A stretch of 64,000 bases of DNA from Onchidella celtica. Lineage: Eukaryota > Mollusca > Gastropoda > Systellommatophora > Onchidiidae. A model generated the notes under the pieces. It ran no database searches. It was not told the DNA's origin and saw only the letters and a program-made list of their open reading frames with translations. Made by a program: the position numbers and the translations under genes. Shown piece by piece: positions 6,691 to 64,000 of this stretch; position 1 is the first letter of the stretch, and every line of letters starts with the position of its first letter. The stretch is from NCBI GenBank assembly GCA_963931925.1, contig OZ007569.1, positions 23,334,662 to 23,398,661 on the forward strand. Reading direction: 5' to 3'.

Positions 6691-6999
6691 CAGAGAGTAT
6701 TTATAGGAAGATCTCACTTCCCAAATCGCGAAACTAGATCGCTGCGGTAAAGAATTGAAAGAGACCGTCTTCACCAAAGATAGTGTGCATAACTTACTGT
6801 TTACTGTGGTGTGTTATATTTTTGGGCTTATTCAACCAATTTGGAGCCGTTTGTAAGGCCTTACGCCCCGTGGAAATGCACAAACGGGTTTTGTTTACCT
6901 ACTTTTCGCTCCCTGCTAACAGTGGTTTCGTGGAGTCTCCCGTGTCTCGCATTGCAAATCGACCAATAGTGCAGGCTCTCTATACATGCATACTCTCTG
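6691..6999 (+). mobile_element. MITE-like element, family 3, copy 1
   Basis: The ends are perfect 10-bp inverted repeats, CAGAGAGTAT at 6691-6700 and ATACTCTCTG at 6990-6999. Nearly the whole length is homologous, in inverse orientation, to 62120-62405, with blocks such as CCCGTTTGTGCATTT and CAAATAGAC/TTTCGCGA-type words shared. No transposase reading frame. The target-site duplication is not clear; TTTAG occurs near both ends but is not exactly adjacent. This is a non-autonomous DNA element of unassigned superfamily. Confidence 0.7.
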
Positions 7000-12376: not shown

Positions 12377-12425
12377 TCGCAAGATGTAGGCGTGAAAACC
12401 ATTGTTATGCTGGATGAACAGGGTG
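12377..12425 (+). CDS. SNAP25: SNAP-25, exon coding the end of the N-terminal helix segment (49 nt)
   Basis: A 49-nt exon follows a polypyrimidine tract with CCAG and is followed by the donor GTAGGT at 12426. It reads S-Q-D-V-G-V-K-T-I-V-M-L-D-E-Q-G in frame from its first base. The residue pattern and the exon length are those of SNAP-25 family genes, where this segment lies in the first SNARE (Qb) helix. The last base is the first base of a Glu codon completed by AG at 41606. SNAP-25 is a membrane-attached t-SNARE that pairs with syntaxin and synaptobrevin to drive synaptic vesicle fusion. The family and frame are certain from the join with the next exon. The exon number is inferred because upstream exons are missing. 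Confidence 0.93.
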
Positions 12426-13766: not shown

Positions 13767-13812
<46 letters not shown>

Positions 13813-13971
13813 TCTCCCTCTCTCTCCCTCTATCTCTCTTCCCTTTTTCTCCCCCTCTGTGTTTTATGACTGCCCGACTGTCTGTCTGTCTGTCTGTCTC
13901 TTTCCTTTGTCTCATTTTCTCTCTCCCCGCTTTCACTCTGTCTGACTGCTTCTCCCCCTCTCTTTCTCTCA

Positions 13972-14015
<44 letters not shown>

Positions 14016-14804: not shown

Positions 14805-15001
14805 AAATGTCAAGTGGACTTTGGCCTCTGGAATTACCACGGAAATGGACTGAAATTATTGTCTCTAACGACGCTAATCGCCCAATTCCACAGCTGATCT
14901 GTCAATATCTCAGCCTGAGCAAAATAAATACTGTCCAGGTGTGGCTTTTAGTGCCTTGCGTGACACAGTTGAGAACTCGTTGTCTGTGTATCTATCTATC
15001 T

Positions 15002-15002
<1 letters not shown>

Positions 15003-15080
<78 letters not shown>

Positions 15081-15265
15081 TCTCTCTTAGTCTCCCTATT
15101 TTCTCATTTTGTTTATGTTTCCCCAGCTTTCTCTCTCTCTCTTTGTCTCTGTTTTCTTTATGTCTCCCCCGCTCTCTCTCTCTGTCTCTGTCTCTCTCTG
15201 TTCTCTTTTTCTTTATGTCTCCCCAGCTTTCTCTCTCTCTCTCTATCTCTCTCTCCTCCGAAGCC
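15003..15265 (+). repeat. CT-rich microsatellite
   Basis: Almost pure (CT)n from 15004 to about 15088, then interrupted CT-rich sequence to about 15265 with a repeated TTTATGTCTCCCC word. The 209-codon Leu-Ser-rich open frame that spans it is an artefact. Confidence 0.95.
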
Positions 15266-16086
15266 CCCAGCCCAAATCCCTTTGTTCATTCAATTGATGA
15301 AGTAAAACGCGTTTCCTCTTACACCTGTCAACTAAAATGCGAGCTGGAGACGAGTAGGGACATTTTAATGGATTATTTTGTAATCTATCTATTTTATTAC
15401 ATTTTAGGCAACTTCTGTTGTTTGTCGAATGCATAATTATCATTATTTCGATAATCATTTCTGCCCTATTTCATAATAAACGCTTTTGTTTGTTTTGTTT
15501 CGTTTCTTTGTTTTGTTCATGGTCAGAATTAATTTGTTGTTTTCACCATTCCACCTTCTAAGTGAGTACTTTTTCGGTTCCCTTTTTAAAAAAAATTTTT
15601 TTTGTTTTTCAATCAAGCCTTGCACCTGGAATTTCTGTGTATCCCACTTTATTGACAGATATGTTATTATAATCTTCGGTGTGTGTGACCCAGTTTTATA
15701 ATTGTTCTTGAGACACGATCTAAAAATCAGGTTGGCTTACATTCGTCACTCGTAGCCTTGAGGGCTGTTCCTTTCCGTCATTATGAATTGATTTGCTCGT
15801 CGCCAGCGCCTTCACCGCCAACTTGTACTTTTAACTTCTCGTGTTGTTTTTTTTTCTCTCTCCTTTTTTAAATTCACATTGAAATTTGCTGTGCCTTGTT
15901 TGATATTCAGTCACCTGATGTCTGAGCGTAACAAAATAAAAAATAAATATATATAAAAAAACGCTTTCTCCACTGCTTTAAATGGTTACGTTTCTGTTGG
16001 GTTTTTTTTTTTTTTTGCCATGTTGTCTCTTTGCTAACGTAAGGAACTCTTTGCCATAATATGCAATTTTCCTATGTCTGACCTAA

Positions 16087-18800: not shown

Positions 18801-19539
18801 ACCACAGAGCAGAATGGAGCTGCCTGCGAAGCGCTCAGTACAGACTGGCCTTTATTTTTCTTATTCCATATTTGTGAAAGGATCTGACCAAGCCGGGCTC
18901 AAGGTAGAATTTCTATACCTCTTTAAAAAATCAAAATGAAATAGTTCTAAGACGATTTCAAGCAAAACAGTTTTAATGAATGCAGAAAACTAGCTAATCT
19001 TTCATAACTATAAGTCTTAAGAGCCCCTGCCTTGGAACATAATTCACCGAAGCTTTTCTAGATATATTCAATTATGTGTGTCCTTGGAGTTCTTGTTCAG
19101 TACGTCATGTTCATTAATAATTATATGAACACAAAATATTGCGCTCTTTTTGTTATATTCGCTCACAGTTGGCATCTATTTGAATTACCCTGTCTGCCGT
19201 TTATTTAATGATATACATGTAAGCGAGACTAAGTGCAATTGGCATTCCCATACGTGTAATATCCACACTTGCACAAGGTCTGTCTCGAACATCGTGTTAT
19301 CCGTTTCCACGCTTTTCTCATTATTCCTTAGACGATTATTAAGCCGTTTCCACATCAATACAAGTCAAGTAAGACAAGATAAGATATAACTTTATTATCT
19401 TGTTGCCCGGAAATTTGTAGTCACAGCATCTGCAGTAACAGTACAACAGTAAATACAGTATCTAAGACCCATAGTTTTTTAACGCATACCGCACACATGC
19501 ACATTGCTCACACAACATTATTAGCAAATAAGAACATGT

Positions 19540-19725
<186 letters not shown>

Positions 19726-19914
19726 TACACACACAATGTCAGAACAATCAAATAGGAAAACTAACAACAGCATACTATACCAGGAAACACGGCTGCTAGT
19801 TTCGAATTGCGGATGGCAAAAAAGATTGTCTAGAGGGCTCTCTGTTTGTATTTAGATACAGTATTCGTGCACTTCTTTAGGATCGGACTGTCTGATGGGA
19901 CAAGGGGTGGGCGC

Positions 19915-21310: not shown

Positions 21311-24300
21311 TCAAAACACTCTACTTAGGAAGTCGGCGCCGACATTTTCCTTGCCTTTGACATACCTAATCCTGAATCGATATGACTGTAAAAATAGACT
21401 CCATCGTAATAGCTTTGGGCTGTCAAATCTGGCAGAATTCAAATACTCTAATGACCTATGGTCAGTCTGGAGCACAAACTCCTTACCATACAAATACAAA
21501 GTAAACTTCTTTACGGCCCAAACGATGGCTAGGCATTCTCGCTCTGAGACTGAATATTTCGTCTCACGAGGCAATAGCTTACGACTGGCATATGCCACAG
21601 GATACAACTTTCCCTCATATTCCTGCATAAGAGCAGCACCCAACCCGCGATCTGATGCATCAGTTGCTAGAACAAATTCTTTTGAAAAATCTGGCAAACA
21701 TAACACGGGTTTGGAAACAATGGCATTCTTCAAAGAAGTGTACGCTTTCTCCTGCACTTCTTCCCATTGAACTACATTGGGCTGACCCTTTCTAAGCAAA
21801 TCAGACAGTGGTGCTGCAATCGCTGAAAAGTTAGGTACAAATTCTTGGTAATATCCCACCAGTCCTAAAAATGCTTTCACTTCCTTCTTAGTGGTGGGTC
21901 TGGGTGCATCTCGCACCTTACACACATTTTCTTCTAACAGACCAATCATACCCTTTCCCACTGAGTGTCCAACAAAGTCCACTTCAGACGTGCCAATCAG
22001 GCACTTGGATGGTCTTGCAGTTAATCCAGCTTGGTCCATCCTCTGCAGCAATTCTTTGAGAGCCTTCACATGCTCGTCGAATGTCTCTGTATGGATCAGC
22101 AGGTCGTCCACATACGCTGTCACATTGTTCAGTCCCTGGATCAATGGCTTCACGATCCTGTTCAGTGTAGCTCCTGAGTTCATCATCCCGAAGGGCATCC
22201 GGGTGAATTCATAGTGTTCGCCCATGGTGACGAACGCTGTCTTGGGAATGTCTTGTTCCCGGACTCGCACTTGCCAGTATCCCTTGCTCAAGTCGATCCG
22301 AGAGAATATTCTTCCTCTCGACAGACTCTGGAACACTTCCGATGGGGCTGCTGTCGGATGAGGGTCGAACACTGTGATCTTGTTCAGCCTCCTGTAGTCG
22401 ATGCAGACTCGGTTGGATCCATCCTTCTTCTTGACGACAACAACCGGTGAAGCATACGCTGATGAGCTCCTGCGTATGATGCCCAACCTTTCCATGGTGC
22501 TGAGCTCCTCCTTCAAGGAGTCGCGCATAGCATAGGGCACCGGGTATGGTCGTTGCCGAACAGGTACCTCTGAGGTCAGGTCGATACAATGTTCGCCTAA
22601 CTGGCAGCATCCGGGGAGATTGGTGAAGATGCGTTGATACTCCTTCACCACGTCGCCGAGTTGTTGACGTTGTTCCGGCGTCAGCTGCGTTCCATATTGG
22701 ACATCTTCGTAGCCTTCCTTCTGGTCCCAGCTCCCTAGGTCGGCAAGGTCCTCCGTCATTCCACCGTTGTCGCCTTCCAGGTCGCAGTCCTCGATGACTG
22801 TCATGCCAGCTGACTCCACAGGTTGACTCTCGTCCATCACGTCGTCCTCTGCCAGCACAGTCCCAGCACCATCACCGTCGTCGTCCATCATAGCGTCGAC
22901 ATCTCCAGGTGTGGTGTCGCTCCTGCCGTCGTTAATCTCACACATCTCGTTCACGACAGATGCCGGTCCCATTGCCGCTGCTGCTGCTTGCGTCGTCGCT
23001 GGTGTAGTCCTGGGGATATACCTCTTGAGAAGGTTAGCGTGCAATGTCTTCTCTTTCACACCCATCTTGACTTTGTAGTCGTTGACACCGACAACCGAGA
23101 CTACCTTGTATGGTCCCTTCCACTGGACTAAGAGCTTGTTGGCGTTTGTCGGCAGCAGTACTAAAACTTCGTCGCCAGGGCGGAACTTCCTCTCTCGCGC
23201 CTTCCGGTCGTAGTAAGTTTTCTGTCTACCTTGTGCCTTTGAGAGCTCTTCCGTAGCCAACTTCCACGTGTCCTCCAGCCGCTCGCGTAGTTCCATGACG
23301 TACTGGTAACTGGTCTTTGTCTCCGCCTCCTCTACATCCTTAGTCCATAATTTTCGCAAGATGTGCATCGGTCCTCTCACCGTTCTTCCATACAGTAACT
23401 CGAATGGGGCGAACTTTGTCGATTCTTGGGGAACTTCACGATACGCGAAGAGCAGCGGGTTAATGTATCGGTGCCACTGCTTAGGTTGCTCCGCGCACAG
23501 TCGCCTCAAGGTCTTCTTCAGTGTGCCATTAAATCGCTCCACCAGCCCGTTGCACATAGGGCGGTAGACTGTGGTGGTCGACTGTCGAATTCCCAGTAAT
23601 CTGTTCGTTTCTTTCATGACGTCCGACATGAATTGAGTCCCTTGATCAGATAAGATCTCCTCGGGCACACCCAAACGGCTGTAGATATTTACTAAGGCTT
23701 CTGCTACTGTCTCTGCGTCAATCTTCTTCAAGGGGGTAGCTTCAGGGTAACGAGTAGCGTAGTCTACGTATACCAGGATATACCGATGTCCGCCTTCACT
23801 TGGGGGGTCAATAGGTCCTACTAGGTCCACGGCCACTCTCCTAAATGGGACGTCTACCACTGGCATACTCTGCAAATGCACCTTAGGAGTCGTTCCCTTG
23901 TTCACTGTCCTCTGGCAGATGTCGCATGAGCGGCAGTATCTCGCGACGTCACCTTCGATACCAGGCCAGTAAAAATTGCTCATCACCCTGTCCTTCGTCT
24001 TCTTCACGCCGAGGTGTCCTCCGACGATAGAATCATGGGCAACGCTCAGTACATACTCCCTCAGTTTCTCGGGTAGTACCACTTGTCTTGTGATCGTGGC
24101 CTGTTTTATGTCCTTATAAATCCGGTACAGTACACCTCCGTGTCTCTCGAAGTGTACGGACTTGTTGCCTCTGTTGGTCGGAATTTTCTTCTGCCCCAAC
24201 TTCTTGAGGTCTTCGTCTTCTTCCTGGAGTCGGATGAGTTCCTTCCTATCCACTCCCGCGTGCCGTTCTGCCCTCGGCACCCTCAGCGACGTAGACTGGT

Positions 24301-41605: not shown

Positions 41606-41723
41606 AGCAACTGGACCGTATTGAGGAGGGCATGGACCAAATCAACCAGGACATGAGAGATGCAGAGAAAAACTTAGAGGGTCTGGAGAAGTGCTGTGGT
41701 CTGTGTGTCCTGCCATGGAAAAG
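41606..41723 (+). CDS. SNAP25: SNAP-25, exon with first SNARE helix and cysteine cluster (118 nt)
   Basis: Acceptor CCCCAG at 41605, donor GTGAGT at 41724. The first two bases complete a Glu codon begun at 12425. It then reads [15 protein letters not shown] and on to [18 protein letters not shown] holds the Gln expected at the central (0) layer of the Qb SNARE helix. The C-C-x-x-C cluster corresponds to the palmitoylated cysteines that anchor SNAP-25 to the plasma membrane; only three cysteines are seen, with Trp at a place where vertebrates have another Cys. In vertebrates this 118-nt exon is duplicated (5a/5b). No second copy was found in 41724-45634. Confidence 0.97.
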
Positions 41724-45634: not shown

Positions 45635-45772
45635 ATCAAAGAACTTTGAGAAAGGTTCTGATTACAACAAAACATGGAAAGCCTCGGAGGATGGCAAGAT
45701 CAACACCAATGGACCCAGGGTAGTGGTGGATTCGGGCAATGGGGGAGGACCCACTGGAGGTTACATTACAAG
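45635..45772 (+). CDS. SNAP25: SNAP-25, linker exon (138 nt)
   Basis: Acceptor TTTTGCCAG, donor GTAAGC. AG at 41722-41723 plus the first A gives Arg. It then reads SKNFEKGSDYNKTWK, a lysine-rich loop, GPRVVVDSG, a Gly-rich N-G-G-G-P-T-G-G stretch and YIT. This is the flexible linker between the two SNARE helices, including the conserved G-P-R/V-V segment. The exon ends in AG, completing Arg with G at 55848. Confidence 0.97.
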
Positions 45773-46268: not shown

Positions 46269-49200
46269 TTATTGGTAGCGCCTAGGTGATCGCACTGGTC
46301 GTCCTGAACGGGAAGTGAGCTGTCTGTGGTCAAATTCAGTTGTGGGTGGATCATTATTGTTTCTAGTTCTTTTGTTAAGTTGTGGCTCTTGTGAGACAGG
46401 AGGACGGCCTCTGCGCACCGGCTGCTGAAGTTGTACCGGTTTTGATGAGTCCACTCGTGCAGGCTTAAGGCGGTCTACTGAGATGCGTTCGGCACGACCA
46501 CCTCTGTCTATGAGAAATGTTTTATCTCCAGGAGTTAGCACCTTATAAGGACCGGTGTAAGGCCTTTGTAATGGACTTTTCACTGTATCTGTGCGTATGT
46601 AGACATATTTGGATGATAACAAGAGCGGTGGTAAGTGCGTAGATGGGTTACTATGGTGGATGGCTGGCCTAGGTACACGTAGACCGTTTTTGTCTCGGAG
46701 AGCTGTTAAAAAATCTGATGCAGACCAAGACTGAGTCTGCGACGGAATTAACTCACCGGGGATAGTCAACAGTTCCCCATAGACAAGTTCTGCCGAAGAA
46801 GTTCCCAGGTCCTCCTTTGGAGTTGTTCTGAGTCCGAGGAGTACCCAAGGTATCTCTTCTGCCCAATTGTTCCCTGTTAGTCGTGCCTTCAAAGGTGATT
46901 TGAGTGTGCGATGAAACCTTTCCACCATCCCATTGGCTTGGGGGTGAAATGATGTTGTCCGATGGAGTCTGACTCCTAGGCGTCTCGCAATTTCAGCCCA
47001 CAAGGAAGATGTGAATTGTGAACCACGATCCGACGATATGTCCGCGGGAACCCCGAAGCGAGAGATCCAGCCTCCAAGGAGAGCCCGAACACATTCTGGT
47101 GCTGTAATGTTTGTCATAGGAATTGACTCTGGCCATCGTGTATTACGGTCAATGATGGTTAGGAGGTAACGGTAACCACATGACTGGGGTAATGGACCAA
47201 CAATATCGATGTTGATATGGGAAAATCTTTTGTCAGGTACAGTATATGTCTGAAGGGGCGCCTTGGTATGTTTCTGACTTTTTGATGCCTGGCAATTGTG
47301 TCACTCCTTTACCCAATCGCTAATTTGGCGGCTGAGGCCATGCCACACGTATTTCTCTGCAATGAGTTTAACAGTAGCCTTAACTCCTGGGTGAGCAAGG
47401 TTATGGACAGCCTCGAACACCGGGCGTCGATAATCTGGAGGAACGATAGGGCGGGCTCTACCAGTTGAAATGTCGCAGAGAAGCTCTGGTCCTTCATCAG
47501 TCAGCTTTGTCGTAGCAATTTTCATGTTTGTGATGGCAGTTTTGTACGCTTGTATGTCTGGACTCAAAATTTGCGCCTTGGCCATAGCTGTAAAGTCAAT
47601 GCCTAACGAGACCGCGTTTGTGGAAATGGAAGCGCGAGAAAGGCCATCGGCAACCACATTCTTCTTTCCCGAGATGTGCTTAATATCGGTGGTAAATTCT
47701 GAGATAGCAGTCAGTTGCCTTTGCTGACGGGCTGACCATAGTTAAGATGTTTTCGACATTGCGTGGACTAGAGGTTTGTGGTCTGTGTAGATGGTAAACT
47801 GCCTCCCTTCAAGCATATAATGAAAATGGCGTATTGCCAAATGGGCTTCCAGAAGCTCTCTGTCAAAAGTACTGTACTTGATCTCCGGACTACGTAGCTG
47901 GCGACTAAAAAAGGCAAGTGGCTCCCAGCGACCATGGTTGTACTGCTCAAGGACTGCGCCGACGGCCACATCAGATGCGTCACATGTCAAAGCTAATGGA
48001 CAATCTGTACATGGATGTACCAGCATGGTTGTATCTGCCAATGCTTGTTTACCGGCAAGGAAGGATTGTTTCATTTCCTGGGACCAAATGAGATCTTGGC
48101 GTGGTTTGGATATTTTCAGAGCTTGATAAAGGGGACGCAACATCAAAGCTATGTTTGGAATGAAACGGTGATAAAAGTTTATTATCCCAAGGTACTCTTG
48201 GAGTGCCTTTACAGTTCTTGGTTGTGGTAACTTCTTTACTGCCTCAATACGAGACGACATTGGTGCTGAGCCTGACGCAGACACTCGATGTCCCAAAAAA
48301 TCAAGCGATGCCACTCCAAAGAGACATTTTTCAAGCTTGATTACCAGTCCGTGGTGTTTTAGTCGCCGGAAAACTGCATTGAGGTCCTCTACGTGAGACT
48401 TGGCTGAGGAGCTAGCCACTAAAATATCATCAAGGTAGACAAATGCGCTGTCTAAATCTTGGAGCACAGAGTCCATGAGCCGTTGAAACGTCTGCGCTGC
48501 ATTTTTAAGGCCAAATGGCATACGTAAAAATTCCCATAAACCAAAAGGCGTGATAACAGCTGTTTTAGGTATATCTTCGGGAGTTACAGGAATCTGATGA
48601 TATCCCCTCACAAGGTCAATCTTGGAGAAATATTTTTTTCCAGCCAGGCGAGCCGAAAAGTCTTGAATATGGGGTATCGGATAGCGATCAGGAACTGTGG
48701 CATCATTCAGTCTGCGGTAGTCGCCGCAAGGACGTGAGTCTCCATTACTTTTAGGTACCATGTGTAGTGAGGATGCCCAGGGGCTGTTGGATTTCTGTAC
48801 AATACCCATCTTTTTCATTTCCAAAAATTCCTTCTTTGCAGAGGCCAGCTTGTCTGGTGCTAGACGACGTGCACGAGCGAAGACTGGCCTGTCTTTAGTT
48901 GGGATAAAATGTTTCACCCCGTGCTTGACTTCAGCAGTGGAGAAGGTTGGCTGTAACAGTTCCGGATAGTCACTGAGAATTTTACGGAACTTATTGCTCG
49001 TGATTTCTATGAGAGCAAGATCCGAGTTATCTAAAACTGAACTGACAGTGCAGTGAATATGAGCAAAAGATTCTGCTTCTATCAAGCGACGTCCTCGAAT
49101 GTCGACCAACAGGTTGTGCTGACGGAGAAAATCAGCCCCTAAGAGAGGTCGTTTGACATTAGCTGATATAAGACGTGCTTTGAAAATCTGGTTGCCAAAA

Positions 49201-49487
49201 TGCAAAGATAAGATTCGTGAACCATAGGTGGCTATGGAGGTTCCGTTGGCGGCTTGCAAAGGTGTTCTTGTAGCACCTGATGCTCTTTCTGCCCATGTTG
49301 CTGGTATTACAGAGACTTGTGCGCCTGTATCCACCAAGAAGCGTCTTTTAGACTGTGCGTCGGTCACAAATAGTTGAGTTACCTTTGTCTCTAGGTTTTG
49401 TTTAGTACATGGTGTAGTGGGCGAACATGGCGGACCAGCAAGTAAAGTTTCTACTGCTGGCCCGCTCTCCCGTTTCCCTGGTTCTTT
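46269..49487 (-). pseudogene. CsRn1-like pol with two nonsense codons
   Basis: One frame of 1,073 codons from 49487 to the natural stop at 46269, without frameshifts. Order: protease with D-T-G-A near 49323-49334; RT with YLDD at 48426-48437; RNase H with TCDASD and YTDHKPL; integrase zinc finger; integrase core with D-I-V-G-P, S-S-D-R-G and an E 35 residues on; a GPY module near the C-terminus. TAA at 47742-47744 stops the frame inside RNase H. TGA at 47301-47303 falls where the first zinc-binding Cys of the integrase C-x2-C pair is expected. Reading continues in frame after each. The frame opens about 37 nt before the gag stop, one base back, which fits a -1 frameshift near the A-rich 49482-49490. 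Confidence 0.92.
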
Positions 49488-55847: not shown

Positions 55848-55992
55848 GATAACAAATGATGCCAGGGAAGATGAGATGGAACAAAACATTGGAGAGGTGT
55901 CCGGGATGGTCAGCAATCTACGTAACATGGCTGTCGATATGGGCAATGAGATTGAGTCCCAGAATCGGCAACTGGATCGTATTAACCAGAAG
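55848..55992 (+). CDS. SNAP25: SNAP-25, second SNARE helix exon (145 nt)
   Basis: Acceptor CATCCAG, donor GTGAGA. It reads [48 protein letters not shown] and ends on a codon boundary. This is the N-terminal and central part of the Qc SNARE helix; S-Q-N-R-Q holds the central-layer Gln. Because the exon ends in phase 0, either of the two downstream terminal exons can be joined without a shift. Confidence 0.98.
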
Positions 55993-57766: not shown

Positions 57767-57882
57767 CTGTTACTAGCGGAGCGGAGCATTATACAGAGAG
57801 AGGTATAGCTGAGCAGTAAACATAACTCAGTATTTTCTCCATTTGGCTTTGTGTAACTAGACTATGCTCCTCTAACATCAGC
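57767..57882 (+). mobile_element. Foldback MITE, family 1, copy D
   Basis: Arms GCGGAGCATTATAC and ACTATGCTCCTCTAACATCA enclose the core GAGCAGTAAACATAACTCAG, TATTTTCTCCATTTGGCTTT. Confidence 0.7.
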
Positions 57883-59150
57883 TTTTTTCGAATTTTGAGC
57901 TGCTATCGTCATAGGGAGCGGTGACGATATAAAGCCTTTTAACTTCAGTCAAGAGACAAAACAAAATTTAAACTTTCGTAGGAGCACAAGTTCTATGACG
58001 TCAAGTAAAAAAAGCCAATTGCAGTGCATGGTTGCAACGTCTTGGAAGCTGAACACTGATGCCCCTTTAGTTCTACTGTTCTTTTCACAGCATTTCTCAT
58101 ACTTTTAGATGTGATTTTATCCTTTAAAAGATTTGAAGAAGGTAGTGGTGGACCTACAGTTTTGAGACCCAGAAGCTTAAACTTTTGTAGGGCCCTTTCG
58201 TAACCAGCAACAATAGGGCAATATCCTAAATTCACTCATTAAAAAAAGTCACTTCATAATTCAGGGAACCTCCAGAATTGGGGGCCCCTGAAGCTTAAGC
58301 TTTATTTGTTTCATAATAGGTCGGTCACTGGAAGCAGGGAGAAAGTCTTTAACCTGACAGTCAAATGCAAACTCATGCAGACATTCCTGGCCGCTAAATG
58401 TCTCTTTGACAACCATTGTGTGCTTTCTCATGACATGAATGTATTGTTTGTTATCTGTAGCTCCCATAGCTTCAGTGGACGCAGTCATCTAATGTGTTAC
58501 TATCTCTGACCATCACTACTCTCCACAGTTTTAACATCATCAGGGGCATCTCTCATGCCTCGAAAGTTGCATAAATTTGGCAGCACTGAAAGACTTATTT
58601 GTATACATCAGGTGCATCAGGTTGTTTTTTTTAAGTCAAAATAGGAAAACCAGATGTGCCAAGTTAGATGCCAGCTACCCCAGTTCTGCCCAGAGCTGGG
58701 GTTAAGAACAGATAATATGGGATTTTTGTTCATCCTTTTTGACATTGATGAAAACATTTTGTTCTTTTTGAGAATGATATATTACATGAACTTTATTTTT
58801 CAGAAGGGACAGCATATTTTAAATTTTTCCATAATGAAAGTATATTAGCAAATATAAGCAAGTAAAGAAACATTGTAGAACTTCTGGCTTGCTAGACAGT
58901 ATTCATGTGACAAAGTTTAGGATACTCATAAGGGTGAATGGTTACTGTCTCTCAGTTTATGTTTGTGTCATGTTTATAAGATTTCCAACGAACTTGACCA
59001 TGGATTGTGTGCTTTATCAAAGTACAGAAGAAATGGCTGTTTCAAGTACCTGATGTTTACATGCAAAACTTGCTCACATCTCAGACATCTGTTACTAATA
59101 GGCCTTTAACCCTTGATAATTCCCCACCCACCTCCGTGTGTGTGTTTCAG

Positions 59151-59219
59151 GGCATGTCCAATGAAGTCCGCATCACTGCTGCTAACCAGAGGGCGACCAA
59201 ACTGCTTAAGGAGACTTAA
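59151..59219 (+). CDS. SNAP25: SNAP-25, alternative terminal exon a
   Basis: Acceptor TGTGTGTGTTTCAG, then 22 codons (GMSNEVRITAANQRATKLLK followed by E-T) and TAA. It supplies the C-terminal end of the Qc SNARE helix. A-N-Q-R-A-T-K is the form conserved in animal SNAP-25, so this is the canonical version. The 3' UTR begins at 59220. I see no AATAAA close by; an ATTAAA at 60028-60033 is a candidate poly(A) signal. Confidence 0.96.
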   Translation, partial: GMSNEVRITAANQRATKLLKET

Positions 59220-62119
59220 GATATTCTGCTGGCGCCAAAATACTAACCCAACAACAACAACGCGAATGTAGATCTAGTGGCAATGCTCTGCCTTCTTATT
59301 GGGCTCTATGTTTTCTTTCTGGTCACACGATATGTTTTGTTTTGTGATTTCTCTGGTCTCTCAATGTTAGAATTCATTTACTCGCTCAACCCTAGTGTGA
59401 TGAGTCATCACACTGATATTGTCAATGATAAACATGTTGCTTGACTTGGCTTTGCATTTGAAGGACTTCTCACTTTTATCATTTATCTCCTAAGCCAAGT
59501 TCTTGACTGTTGCTCATTTGCAGAGAAAACACAAGCTTTATTTACATTCTGATTGACGGGAAATATTGTATAAAAAATATTACTTCTTTTATTCAGATCC
59601 GTAGCTTTTCAGCCAATTTGATAAATAGTAAAAATTCTATTGAGGACCCTTCGGGGATAGGTTAATGAGTTCCCCCGGCATCGTCTGTTTACCTTTTCAT
59701 TTTCCACTTCTGTAGATCCACCTGCTTTTCGGTATTCTTGTCATGGTGTATCGTAGTTTGAACACCCCTTTGTGTGGAGCTCAGCTTGCTGTAGTCTTGA
59801 AGACCTGCCCGGCTATGGAACCAGCCAAATGCCATTTAGTTCTTAGTTATTCACACCTGCCCTCCACAGTGGTTTTTTCACCTCAGTTATCATACACCTC
59901 AGTGGATTCAGTTTGAGACATGTTGGTGTAAATCCTGAATTTGTTTTGGTTTTTATATCATTGTCTTCATCTTTCTGTTCACCAGGCATGACTTGTGGAT
60001 GTCTCAATATCATCATGCACTAACCCAATTAAATTTGGTTTTTTGTTTCTTTTCAGTGTCACATATAGCCCCAGATTTTGTGTTGTTGTTGTTGTTGTTT
60101 TTTTGTTAATGTTGCCATGTAGAGATATACACACCTGTTTGCTACCCATGCAGGATGCCAGCTTGCCACAAAATTGGCTTTTTGTGTCATCGATCTCTCT
60201 ACTGCTCTGGTATCTTGCATGAGACACCCAGTCATTGCAGTTTCACACTTATTATGGCCAAAATAATTTTGATTTCATTAAGGATTCGTTTTCAGTGAAA
60301 TTCTGCGTAAAGTTGTAAAAAAAGAAAAGTGTCTATGCCATTTCTTTTCAAACTAATTTCTAAGCTACAAAAATGATGCAGATGGAACTTCAGATTCATT
60401 GCTTTGCAAGATTGACAGCACTTCATGAAATCTTAACCTTTTGTATGCCAATCACCGATACATTGATTCTTCTACTGGTCACATTTGTGTCAGTCATCGA
60501 TGTATTGGTACACAAGAATGCTAGGCTGTTTTGTTTCAGGAAGAAAGAAAGTCGAGTTTCTATTAGTAGATGTTGCTGAAGTTAATCTTCATTCATCTCC
60601 CCCACTATTTTGTTCCTGTATTGGCAAACATGGAAAAATTCATGGCGCACAAAGAGTTAAATGGCCTAGGCATTTGGCAGATAGGACAATCTTACTGTAG
60701 TGTACTATAATTTCACTTCAGAAACAGCTTGCCTTTTCTGATTAGACTCAGTGGACACCAGCTACCGTAAAAGAAACCGTGAAAATGAGGAATTAAGTTG
60801 TGGATTTTATATTAACATTTCTCTTGGCACCCTCTACTGAGGTGTTTTTAAATTGTAGCAGTGAAGTCTATTGAAAGGCATTGTAATTGTTTCTCTGGCC
60901 TCTAGTTGTGTGTGACTGATGTGTGTGTAGTTTTATTCCATATTATTTATATCACCCTCATTGTTTGTACTGCAGAATGTATGTCAAGCACATATTTCAT
61001 TAGTTGATACTGCCAAGTATAGAGACATATCACATTATATTTTTCTCTCTTCAGTTTGCGTGGACTACAGAATATTTATTTATCTAGAATATTCAGTCTC
61101 TATTATATATCGAGTAGAAATTACAATAGGAAGCCCACATGATGCTTCTCAACTATACAGATTCCTAAGTTTATATACAGCAACATCATTCTGATGAAGG
61201 CCTATCAGTGTTATCATGTTATTAAGATGTCAAATGTCTTCAGCTCGTCTTTCATAAGCTTCAAAGAAACTTTGACTGATCTAAAGTTTTGTTACATTTT
61301 ACATCTCCAGTCATCTTGCAAATCAAAGCCTAAAAACAGTCTACTTAAAATCTGAGAACATTTCTAGAGCCAATTTGCTCAACTCTATCTCAAATTTTGT
61401 ATGTTGTTTTTTTTTTCAGTCGAGATCACCAAAATTTTATTTGCTGTCTAGTTGCTTCATTAAAGATGTTTTACTTGTTGTCTTCAGAACTGTTGAAACT
61501 GGAGTATCAGCCTCTCACTCTTGCTGCAGTCATTATTGAGCATTATCTTCTAAAGGAAATCAAACGAGAGAAAGTTTCCCAAGCATTATCATTTTCCCTC
61601 TTTGCTTTCCACTCCTTGTTGAAGCAGTGTCATTCCTACTCCTCAAGAGTTCATTTGAGACTCTTTGGGGGAGGGGGGGTTATATGATATATGAATTTTA
61701 GTTGGACTTTCAGTAGACAGTGGGGAAACTGGAACCAGGATAGTTCATCCACAGGCATTTTTGTTTAGACATTCTGTGGATTCGTACCAATAGGTTTCAC
61801 AAAGTCAAGTTTGAGGAAGCTTAAGAGCAGATAGAGATGTATAAAACAAATCAGAGAGATAGAAAGTGAAAACAACTGCAAATAGATTTTAAAAAAAAAA
61901 AAAAGGAGACAGGGGTAGTAAATTTTGTGTTTAAAAGACAAAGGAGACTGAGAAATGTCTATACTTTTCTACAGAGAAACAGGGCAATGGTACTTAATCT
62001 GTTTTTGTCTTTTAACTAATTCATTGCACTTGGCATGAACAGAAAAGGCTAGTCCACATGGATGGCTACTGACTGTCTGATTCCCTCCGTACTTCAGCAT
62101 TTGATTGCTGTTAAAGTTG

Positions 62120-62405
62120 CCCTAAAACGGGAGGCTCTGCGAAACCATTGTTAGCATGGAGCGGAAAGTAGGTCGCTGCGGTAAACAGTTCCCGTTTGTG
62201 CATTTTCGGGGGCTGCAAGAGCTTATAAACGGCTGTAAATAGTTTCAATCAGCCCAAAAAATATGAACAAACCACACTAAACAAATATCTGTAATGAAGA
62301 CAGTGTCTTTCAATTCTTCAATTTCTTGTTTGCCACAGTGACCTAGTTTCGCAATGTGGCGGAAGTGAGTTCTCTCTATACATCTATACTCTTTGGACAT
62401 ATTCA
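62120..62405 (-). mobile_element. MITE-like element, family 3, copy 2
   Basis: Inverse of 6691-6999, with GCGAAACCATTGTTAGCA, AAAGTAGGT, CCCGTTTGTGCATTT, AGCCCAAAAAATAT and the end TCTATACTCTTTGG (compare ATACTCTCTG). The left end is less clear than in copy 1. Confidence 0.68.
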
Positions 62406-62530
62406 GGATTGTTGCAGGTTGCATCACATATCATTGATCAGCTGTTGGAAACCTTGTTGAAACTAAGGTCAAAGGTTGTTGTTTGGAGAGTGTGGTCTAA
62501 TTACAAAGCCAATAGGTAGAATGCACATAT

Positions 62531-62545
62531 CCGCCATCTTGGCTG
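62531..62545 (+). promoter_or_regulatory. YY1-like site
   Basis: CCGCCATCTTGGCTG fits the YY1 consensus well. A second GGCCATCTTGG lies at about 62875-62885. Function is inferred only from the motif. Confidence 0.4.
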
Positions 62546-62915
62546 TCCGGAGCCACGCATCACCATGGTGATTGTGGCATTGATTTTGATTCGTTAGCTG
62601 ATTTGCACTGCGAGCACATAAAGCGTCACGAACCAATCGGAGGCGAGCTAAAAGTTGTTCACCGCAGTAAACAATGGCACGTGTGTACATGCACATGGGA
62701 GATGTTTGGTCAATTCTTTCACTTCCTTTCCATTGTTTACAGGGATGGTAGGGAATCTGACCCAGCTTGGATCCATCCTTTCCACCCCTGTTATAACAAT
62801 CAGCTACAATGCAACCAGCAGGCAATTTAACCGCTTAGACATATCTCGAAGTTACACTCATCACCTGATCCACCGGCCATCTTGGATGTCGGAAGAACAA
62901 AACAAAAACACTCTG

Positions 62916-62923
62916 TGACGTCA
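62916..62923. promoter_or_regulatory. CRE palindrome
   Basis: TGACGTCA, a full cAMP response element, overlaps the start of the right inverted repeat of the nested element, about 530 bp upstream of exon b. Confidence 0.4.
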
Positions 62924-63456
62924 TGCGCATTCTACCTATTAGAGAAAACGCTGAGTTGTGTTCACTGCTCAGCTGGAGCTTTCTATGTAACATACTATGG
63001 TCCCCTAACGAAAGTGTTTGAGTTTAGTTTAAACAAGTTACCAACAGCTGACCACTGATGTGAAGCTGCGTTCAACATTAATAGGTGGGGGGGGGGGGGG
63101 GGGTTGGGGGTTACAACTGTTTCATATTTCAGGACCTCAACAGATCTGTAATAGGACTGAACCGTTTTGAGGAATCATTCTTTGCATTTTATTTGATTCA
63201 CCTGTAGTGTGTGTGTTGTTTTTTATCATTCTTATCTGGGTTTTTTTTTGTAATTTTGTGTAATATTTCTTGTACCTTTTTGTTTCAGAATGTGAGATGT
63301 GATTTTATTTTCTTTGATTACATTCCCTATTGATGTTGTCATTCAAGTAGGTTTTTTTTTTTTTGTAGAAATTGTTTCATACCATTTCTATTTCGTTTAT
63401 AATTTTTTTTATTATTATTTCCTTTCTTTTGTTTCATTTCTCTCGTGGCCAACCAG

Positions 63457-63525
63457 GGCGATTCATTAAATGTACGGGTGGATGGAGCAAACAAACGAGC
63501 CAATCGGATACTGCGGAATCAGTGA
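63457..63525 (+). CDS. SNAP25: SNAP-25, alternative terminal exon b
   Basis: Acceptor GGCCAACCAG after a long T-rich tract, then 22 codons (GDSLNVRVDGANKRANRILR followed by N-Q) and TGA. It has the same length, phase and first residue as exon a and matches it at 9 of 22 residues (G1, S3, V6, R7, A11, N12, R14, A15, L19). The helix pattern is kept, but Q13 is K, T16 is N and K17 is R. Both exons hold their own stop, so they are mutually exclusive C-termini. Conservation of length, phase and helix residues argues against a dead duplicate, although expression cannot be shown here. Confidence 0.88.
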   Translation, partial: GDSLNVRVDGANKRANRILRNQ

Positions 63526-64000
63526 GTGCACACAGGTTGAGCTTTCAGTCGGTCGGTCAGTGGAGGAAATGGACCACTTCAGTTTCTCCATACAGTTTGA
63601 CCATTTGGAAATGCAAAATTCGCGAACATGCCAGGAGTGAATGATGGAAAGAGTGAATGATATTGAGGGTTATCAACCAGTATGTGTTTTGTCCAATTTT
63701 ATTCATTGCTCTTAAATGCCTGTCGAGATCAAAGACACAAGGTGTTTGACTTTATTTCATAACCCAATAAAACTGTTCATGTGGCGGTGTTGAAATTAAT
63801 AGAGTTATTTGAATTTTCGTTAAGGTTACCATTTTCAAACTGGTTTTTCTCAATTTGATGATTTTGGATGTAAAACATTCTGGTTGCCAACCCTCCATAT
63901 ATATTTCCCTACTTAATTTGATTTATGTACAGTGCAAGTGAATTCCAAGAGATTTTGTAAATAACCTAACTATATTATCTTTTGTTTTTTTTTTGCCTGT
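63526..64000 (+). other. SNAP25: 3' UTR of exon b and downstream flank
   Basis: Follows the TGA of exon b. It contains the AATAAA at 63766-63771. After it the DNA is AT-rich with no further feature. Confidence 0.7.
63766..63771 (+). terminator. SNAP25: Poly(A) signal for the exon b transcript
   Basis: Canonical AATAAA 241 bp after the exon b stop, followed within 20-30 bp by a GT-rich GTGGCGGTGTTG. This is a good cleavage and polyadenylation context. Confidence 0.75.

Follow-up and report, generated by a model that had tools for sequence, protein, structure and literature searches.

Can a single SNAP-25 gene end in two ways, and which part of the protein would such a choice exchange? The question is raised by a locus of the gastropod Onchidella celtica, analysed here as a window of 64,000 nucleotides (contig OZ007569.1, positions 23,334,662 to 23,398,661 of the forward strand), whose plus strand contains the 3' two thirds of a SNAP-25 gene together with two short terminal coding exons, a and b, each encoding its own end of the second (Qc) SNARE helix. 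We consider it likely that the gene carries ancient alternative 3'-terminal coding exons and that their swap acts on C-terminal zippering, and we infer that this animal uses both exons, nervous tissue included.

Exon a (GMSNEVRITAANQRATKLLKET and a stop; 59151..59219, 69 nt, plus strand) and exon b (GDSLNVRVDGANKRANRILRNQ and a stop; 63457..63525, 69 nt, plus strand) each encode SNARE layers +3 to +8, and both were delimited by reading frame and splice sites and by the a-type and b-type tails, respectively, of other molluscs. A single donor, AACCAGAAG/gtgaga at 55992, faces two acceptors of the same phase (phase 0), ...tgtgtttcag/GGC for exon a, preceded by a (GT)n stretch, and ...ggccaaccag/GGC for exon b, so that each opens CAG/GGC. 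Both exons comprise 22 codons, closed by TAA in exon a and by TGA in exon b, and the two tails, equal in length, share 9 of 22 residues. The sequence-only reading of this DNA had described the exons in these terms, and its coordinates, acceptors, phase 0, GGC start, 22 residues and separate stops are borne out to the base, recomputation likewise returning its figure of nine shared residues. As a control for chance, every AG-preceded, stop-ended frame of 22 codons in the window was counted (65 on the plus and 58 on the minus strand; n = 123); the best partner of exon a among them is exon b, with nine identities, the next having five, and the reciprocal comparison gives the same result. In a tblastn search of the window with exon a, exon b is the second match (E 0.009) and the following one has an E value of 2.0. 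The exhaustive count of 123 comparable frames rules out exon b as a chance frame, and, judged from sequence, its similarity is not fortuitous because the stretch formed by the end of exon 7 and exon b has matches of up to 96%, over 45 residues, in the proteins of other molluscs. A donor-like TCA/GTGAGTG at 63522-63528 overlaps the exon-b stop, and onward splicing of exon b might occur; in each of the 17 named b tails examined, the end is at Q206 or aligned with it.

The two tails recur in other molluscs. Three protein searches with the last 45-46 residues gave 87 of 89 candidates (b query), 117 of 119 (a query) and 147 of 156, with 120 listed (fly query); these searches return 90% clusters and use capped words, so that the absence of a tail from a given species is a weak indication. 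Among the 248 proteins found, 220 gave a tail, making 129 distinct tails with the two of the window, and the remaining 28, dropped for want of an extractable tail, seem for the most part to be frames that read on past the end of exon 7 or other sequence that is not a tail. Both tails are present in seven molluscs, five gastropods and two bivalves, namely Physella acuta, Pomacea canaliculata, Littorina saxatilis, Babylonia areolata, Elysia crispata, Mya arenaria and Mercenaria mercenaria, and in all nine a/b pairs from these species the proteins, mostly automated gene models, are identical from SLESTRRM to the tail, over 164-166 residues. The N-terminus is also identical in eight of the nine; the ninth pair, from Elysia crispata, shares an identical 166-residue core, its two protein models bearing different numbers and differing at the N-terminus. 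As far as protein sequences can tell, this is the pattern expected from alternative splicing of one gene. Two records are cloned or transcript-derived: Lymnaea Q869G6 (P0021) carries a b tail, and 1L4A chain D, which we take to be squid, carries an a-like tail. The earlier reading had also raised the case of exon b being absent or broken in close relatives, and here the outcome is favourable, b tails being intact in annotated mollusc proteins.

The tails form two separate classes. With profiles built from hand-picked named sets, which also underlie the residue counts and the tail tree below, 15/15 mollusc b tails prefer the b profile by 29.1-48.0 bits and 12/12 mollusc a tails the a profile by 23.7-48.7 bits, figures for which the leave-one-out is incomplete in seven tails with twins (P0045/P0047/P0053 and P0054/P0071, a tails identical to each other, and P0007/P0021, b tails identical over the 20 columns used in the scoring). 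Mean tail identity is 15.9/22 within a, 16.8/22 within b and 9.1/22 between the classes. Among the named molluscs (from which Elysia marginata, Plakobranchus, Batillaria, Candidula and the second Babylonia locus, among others, were left out), residue 188 is Asn in 13/13 a tails and Leu in 17/17 b tails, residue 192 is Ile in 13/13 a tails vs Val in 17/17 b tails, and residue 202 is Leu (11) or Ile (2) in a and Ile in all 17 b tails, which also all carry R204 and Q206. Across the 129 distinct tails, L188 occurs in 28, accompanied by V192 in 27 and by I202 in 28, and N188 in 97. Exon b has a net charge of +3 against +2 for exon a, the mollusc means being 2.8 and 1.8. The core of the sequence-only reading, one SNAP-25 gene with two Qc-helix C-termini obtained by last-exon choice, is thus supported by nine of nine pairs in seven species and by two separate conserved classes.

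What the swap exchanges can be read on the layers of the SNARE bundle. On its own, SNAP-25 would be expected to be disordered. The zero-layer glutamine of its second helix, Gln174 in human numbering, is taken here as layer 0. The exon boundary lies between residues 184 and 185 (human numbering), so that the last 22 residues, layers +3 to +8, are swapped; the assignment of Gln174 agrees with the truncation map given in PMC7116205, and residue 185 is then layer +3. Section 7 of PMC4744192 assigns layers 0 to +2 to the middle zippering domain, and in the partially zippered state that it describes VAMP2 is unfolded from +8 to +3 and the t-SNARE to +5. The C-terminal zippering domain of the Qc helix begins where the exon does, since layers 0 to +2 form the middle domain and the exon begins at +3. 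The complexin accessory helix is reported to contact the 12 C-terminal SNAP25 residues (PMC7116205), and G-beta-gamma to prefer the partly zippered complex, basic residues of SNAP25 being of importance (PMC12302718). Within the core, layer +4 is the usual polar Asn in exon a and Leu in exon b, layer +5 is Ile in a and Val in b, and exon b has Ile at +8; the change from Asn to Leu is the clearest difference.

A mechanism can be proposed on this basis. The donor at 55992 would be spliced either to exon a (59151) or, past it, to exon b (63457), exchanging the C-terminal zippering domain, in which the t-SNARE end is frayed before fusion and to which the complexin accessory helix binds. The Leu at +4, the one extra positive charge and the contact sites of the regulators suggest that exon b would most likely provide a more hydrophobic, or stiffer, start of the C-terminal domain, and that it would present an altered surface toward complexin, synaptotagmin or G-beta-gamma. 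The choice between a and b would then alter the proportions of clamped, half-zippered and fused states by cell type or stage, and in this way tail choice probably tunes vesicle fusion. Regarding the choice itself, an inverted repeat has its arms on either side of exon a (57774..57839, 66 nt, and 62942..63007, neither assigned to a strand; 76% to each other, E 4e-8); it is possible, although unproven, that the arms loop out exon a, and they may be two copies of a mobile element and nothing more. RBFOX-type TGCATG sites are not in excess over chance in the window (48 vs 41.4 expected). A dispersed repeat has copies at 62127-62383, between exons a and b, and at 6699-6943, in opposite orientation and 70% alike over 270 columns.

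Ahead of the two tails, four phase-consistent exons with standard splice sites span 12377-55992 on the plus strand: (i) exon 4 of the QDV/SQDV type (SQDVGVKTIVMLDEQG), in the first SNARE helix (12377..12425, 49 nt; tblastn and phase joining); (ii) the exon that completes the first SNARE helix and encodes the cysteine-rich CCGLC segment (41606..41723, 118 nt; tblastn at 85% identity, E 2e-20, and splice phases); (iii) a linker exon (45635..45772, 138 nt; tblastn E 3e-5 and splice phases); and (iv) exon 7, from the start of the second (Qc) SNARE helix to layer +2, with donor AAG/gtgaga (55848..55992, 145 nt; tblastn E 2e-20 and splice phases). The second half of helix 1, the CCGLC linker and the entire helix 2 are therefore present, and a window segment of 13 residues holding the zero-layer Gln of the second helix aligns with DTQNRQIDRIMEK of a solved SNAP-25. 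Pfam PF00835 (SNAP-25) matches both joined products (E 4.1e-21 for a, 4.4e-21 for b), as do solved SNAP-25 chains of the PDB (E 1e-54), and the common part of 150 residues has its closest protein in the slug Arion vulgaris (146/150 residues identical), so that the gastropod is probably a heterobranch. The N-terminal exons must be located upstream of the window, since tblastn found no match to them within it. Long minus-strand frames in the introns of the gene (46272-49487 and around 21600-23700) have, by eye, the look of Ty3/gypsy-type retrotransposon polyproteins, and long CT/AG simple repeats, read as SLSLSL or RERERE frames, lie in introns at about 13800-14000, 15000-15300 and 19500-19750.

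How the two tails come to be used is the point on which alternatives have to be weighed. That they belong to two genes joined by chance in the window is hardly credible: paralogues do occur, Babylonia areolata having a second SNAP-25-like protein with an a-type tail on another contig (P0068), and the Elysia crispata tails sit on the separately numbered models already mentioned, but a single set of upstream exons precedes both tails, tblastn finding no second set in the window, and the mollusc pairs are identical throughout except for the tail in eight of nine cases and over the 166-residue core in the ninth. The two-gene explanation was rejected on these two grounds. It is just as improbable that exon b has decayed into a relic or is a duplicate out of use: its frame is open, its acceptor intact and its length exact, b tails with R204 and Q206 throughout the named set stand in the annotated proteins of many molluscs, and the Lymnaea record terminates in one. 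Somewhat less remote, though still rather improbable, is a choice that is mainly regulatory, in which different 3' untranslated regions (UTRs) govern where the message is localised, how stable it is or how it is translated, the difference between the tails being of secondary weight. Alternative last exons carry different 3' UTRs by construction, and the a and b proteins stay similar; the strong class-specific conservation of tail residues, core layers +4, +5 and +8 included, speaks for the protein.

The most serious competitor, which we nevertheless hold to be the less probable one, concerns the 3' end: the two acceptors could be alternative 3' splice sites within one long composite last exon, both isoforms ending at the same AATAAA and exon b remaining, unspliced, within the roughly 4.5-kb 3' UTR of the exon-a message. 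The AATAAA that the sequence-only reading had assigned to exon b is found at 63766..63771 on the plus strand, 241 nt past the exon-b stop. On the plus strand of 59001-64000 there is no other, hence none for exon a, and from 59001 to 63765 there are only variant signals, ATTAAA at 60028 and 61459, both between exons a and b, and weaker ones. ATTAAA is itself a usable poly(A) signal, and the repeat copy at 62127-62383, no more typical of a UTR than of an intron, decides neither way. The claim of last-exon choice thus stands as to two acceptors and two stops, whereas for the poly(A) site two 3' splice sites with one distal signal could serve. Besides this lack of an AATAAA for exon a, several points weigh against alternative terminal exons with a functional division between a and b. 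Use of both junctions in this animal is a prediction, and the functional step a proposal. Some b-like tails are without Leu at layer +4 (Asn in P0044, P0046, P0048, P0050 and P0051; Val in P0058), and P0077 carries L188 yet scores as a. Among the matches listed, only b was found in Lottia, oysters and a chiton, and only a in Biomphalaria, Bulinus, Nucella and Pecten, both weak observations.

Regarding age, the terminal exon pair looks old, indeed ancient, from the distribution of the tails. One annelid protein and one bryozoan protein carry b-like tails; the b profile is favoured by Lamellibrachia (P0064) and P0066 (18 bits) and by the bryozoan Watersipora (27 bits), and the a profile by Ridgeia, Owenia and Capitella (22-25 bits), as well as by 12/12 insect first tails, 5/5 chelicerates, 5/5 vertebrate or tunicate tails and one nematode. 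In a tree of the 22-residue tails, the b tails, 19 in all and drawn from 16 named molluscs, an annelid, a bryozoan and the window, group together, the node being virtually unsupported (0/52); with a Drosophila Snap24 tail added, the b node has 92.9/99, and a wider group, which also takes in the second tails of dipterans, a crab, a hoverfly and the a-tail of the annelid Capitella, has 99.1/97. The tree fixes no age for the pair and leaves a relation to arthropod tails possible. In insects (Culex, Polypedilum, Tribolium, Anoplophora), four of five same-species pairs share at least 132 residues and then, as in molluscs, differ past the same boundary (protein pairs P0168/P0180, P0200/P0210, P0171/P0187 and P0192/P0188), while in the fifth, from Frankliniella, both proteins have the same tail. 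These insect tails differ from mollusc b in having no Leu at layer +4; the second tails of beetles score as a-type, and the seven of dipterans, at -11.2 to +2.9 bits, do not clearly favour either profile. A common origin of insect and mollusc b tails is possible but not shown. The Drosophila and calyptrate proteins that we call Snap24-type, after the annotation of P0137, resemble exon b in the tail pattern D-G-x-N-K-R-A-N, one of them joining the b clade as noted above, but have Asn at layer +4 and belong to a separate gene. The Parnassius model P0165 displays two tail-like segments in succession.

The tail is not the only variable part of SNAP-25 in molluscs. Two exon 4 versions occur in the first helix (SKEAGIKTLVMLDEQG vs one like that of the window), together with two N-termini (P0004, P0008, P0009, P0045, P0012-P0016, P0056, P0057), in free combination, and the Pomacea proteins display six of the eight combinations of N-terminus, exon 4 version and tail; exon 4 of Tribolium is also variable. 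The KEA type of exon 4 is absent from the window by tblastn and by a scan of its 194 open 49-nt AG..GT frames, in which only 12377-12425, the SQDV version, matches (11 residues, the next frame having 4). A broader proposal, to which we give rather less than even weight, is that lophotrochozoan SNAP-25 is a combinatorial fusion tuner, with two N-termini, two exon 4 versions and two C-terminal domains chosen separately, and with a terminal pair that would predate the split of molluscs, annelids and bryozoans, perhaps being shared with arthropods; exon b would then be a conserved re-engineering of final zippering via hydrophobic layer +4, without vertebrate counterpart.

Both mollusc tails are on record as automated 'isoform X' database proteins, and the open-licence literature on SNAP-25 splicing and invertebrate occurrence gave no account of alternative terminal exons, a weak negative given that scope; the part of PMC4342343 that aligns mollusc SNAP-25 proteins does not mention alternative tails. 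The tails are recorded in databases yet apparently not discussed, and the earlier statement that no mollusc description was known holds for this literature, though not for the databases. The C-terminal half of the SNARE bundle performs the last step of fusion and contains the complexin site, and the exon switch exchanges precisely that part of one helix; the a and b tails are ready-made natural variants for testing how the packing of layers +3 to +8 sets release probability, for which Lymnaea, Aplysia and other gastropods, with identified neurons that can be recorded singly, are well suited.

Compared to tandem duplicated or alternative last exons in general, exons a and b are likewise homologous and equal in length and would be used alternatively, but differ in that the exchanged unit matches a mechanical folding domain of the fusion machine. 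The nearest known system is vertebrate SNAP-25a/b, encoded by the mutually exclusive exons 5a and 5b, which according to PMC2581893 is developmentally regulated, the duplication being absent in Torpedo and Drosophila; this agrees with the earlier statement that vertebrates vary exon 5 and not the C-terminus. Both systems belong to the same gene family and comprise two homologous exons, used one at a time, each changing a SNARE helix. Vertebrates, however, duplicate an internal exon that spans the last part of the first helix and the cysteine region, whereas the gene in the window duplicates the terminal exon encoding the end of the second helix, and its exon 5 homologue (41606-41723) has no second copy in the window, tblastn with exon-5 queries returning one real match. 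Exon duplication in SNAP-25 has thus taken different places in vertebrates and molluscs, and the effect proposed for a and b would be akin to that of exons 5a and 5b, exerted elsewhere in the molecule.

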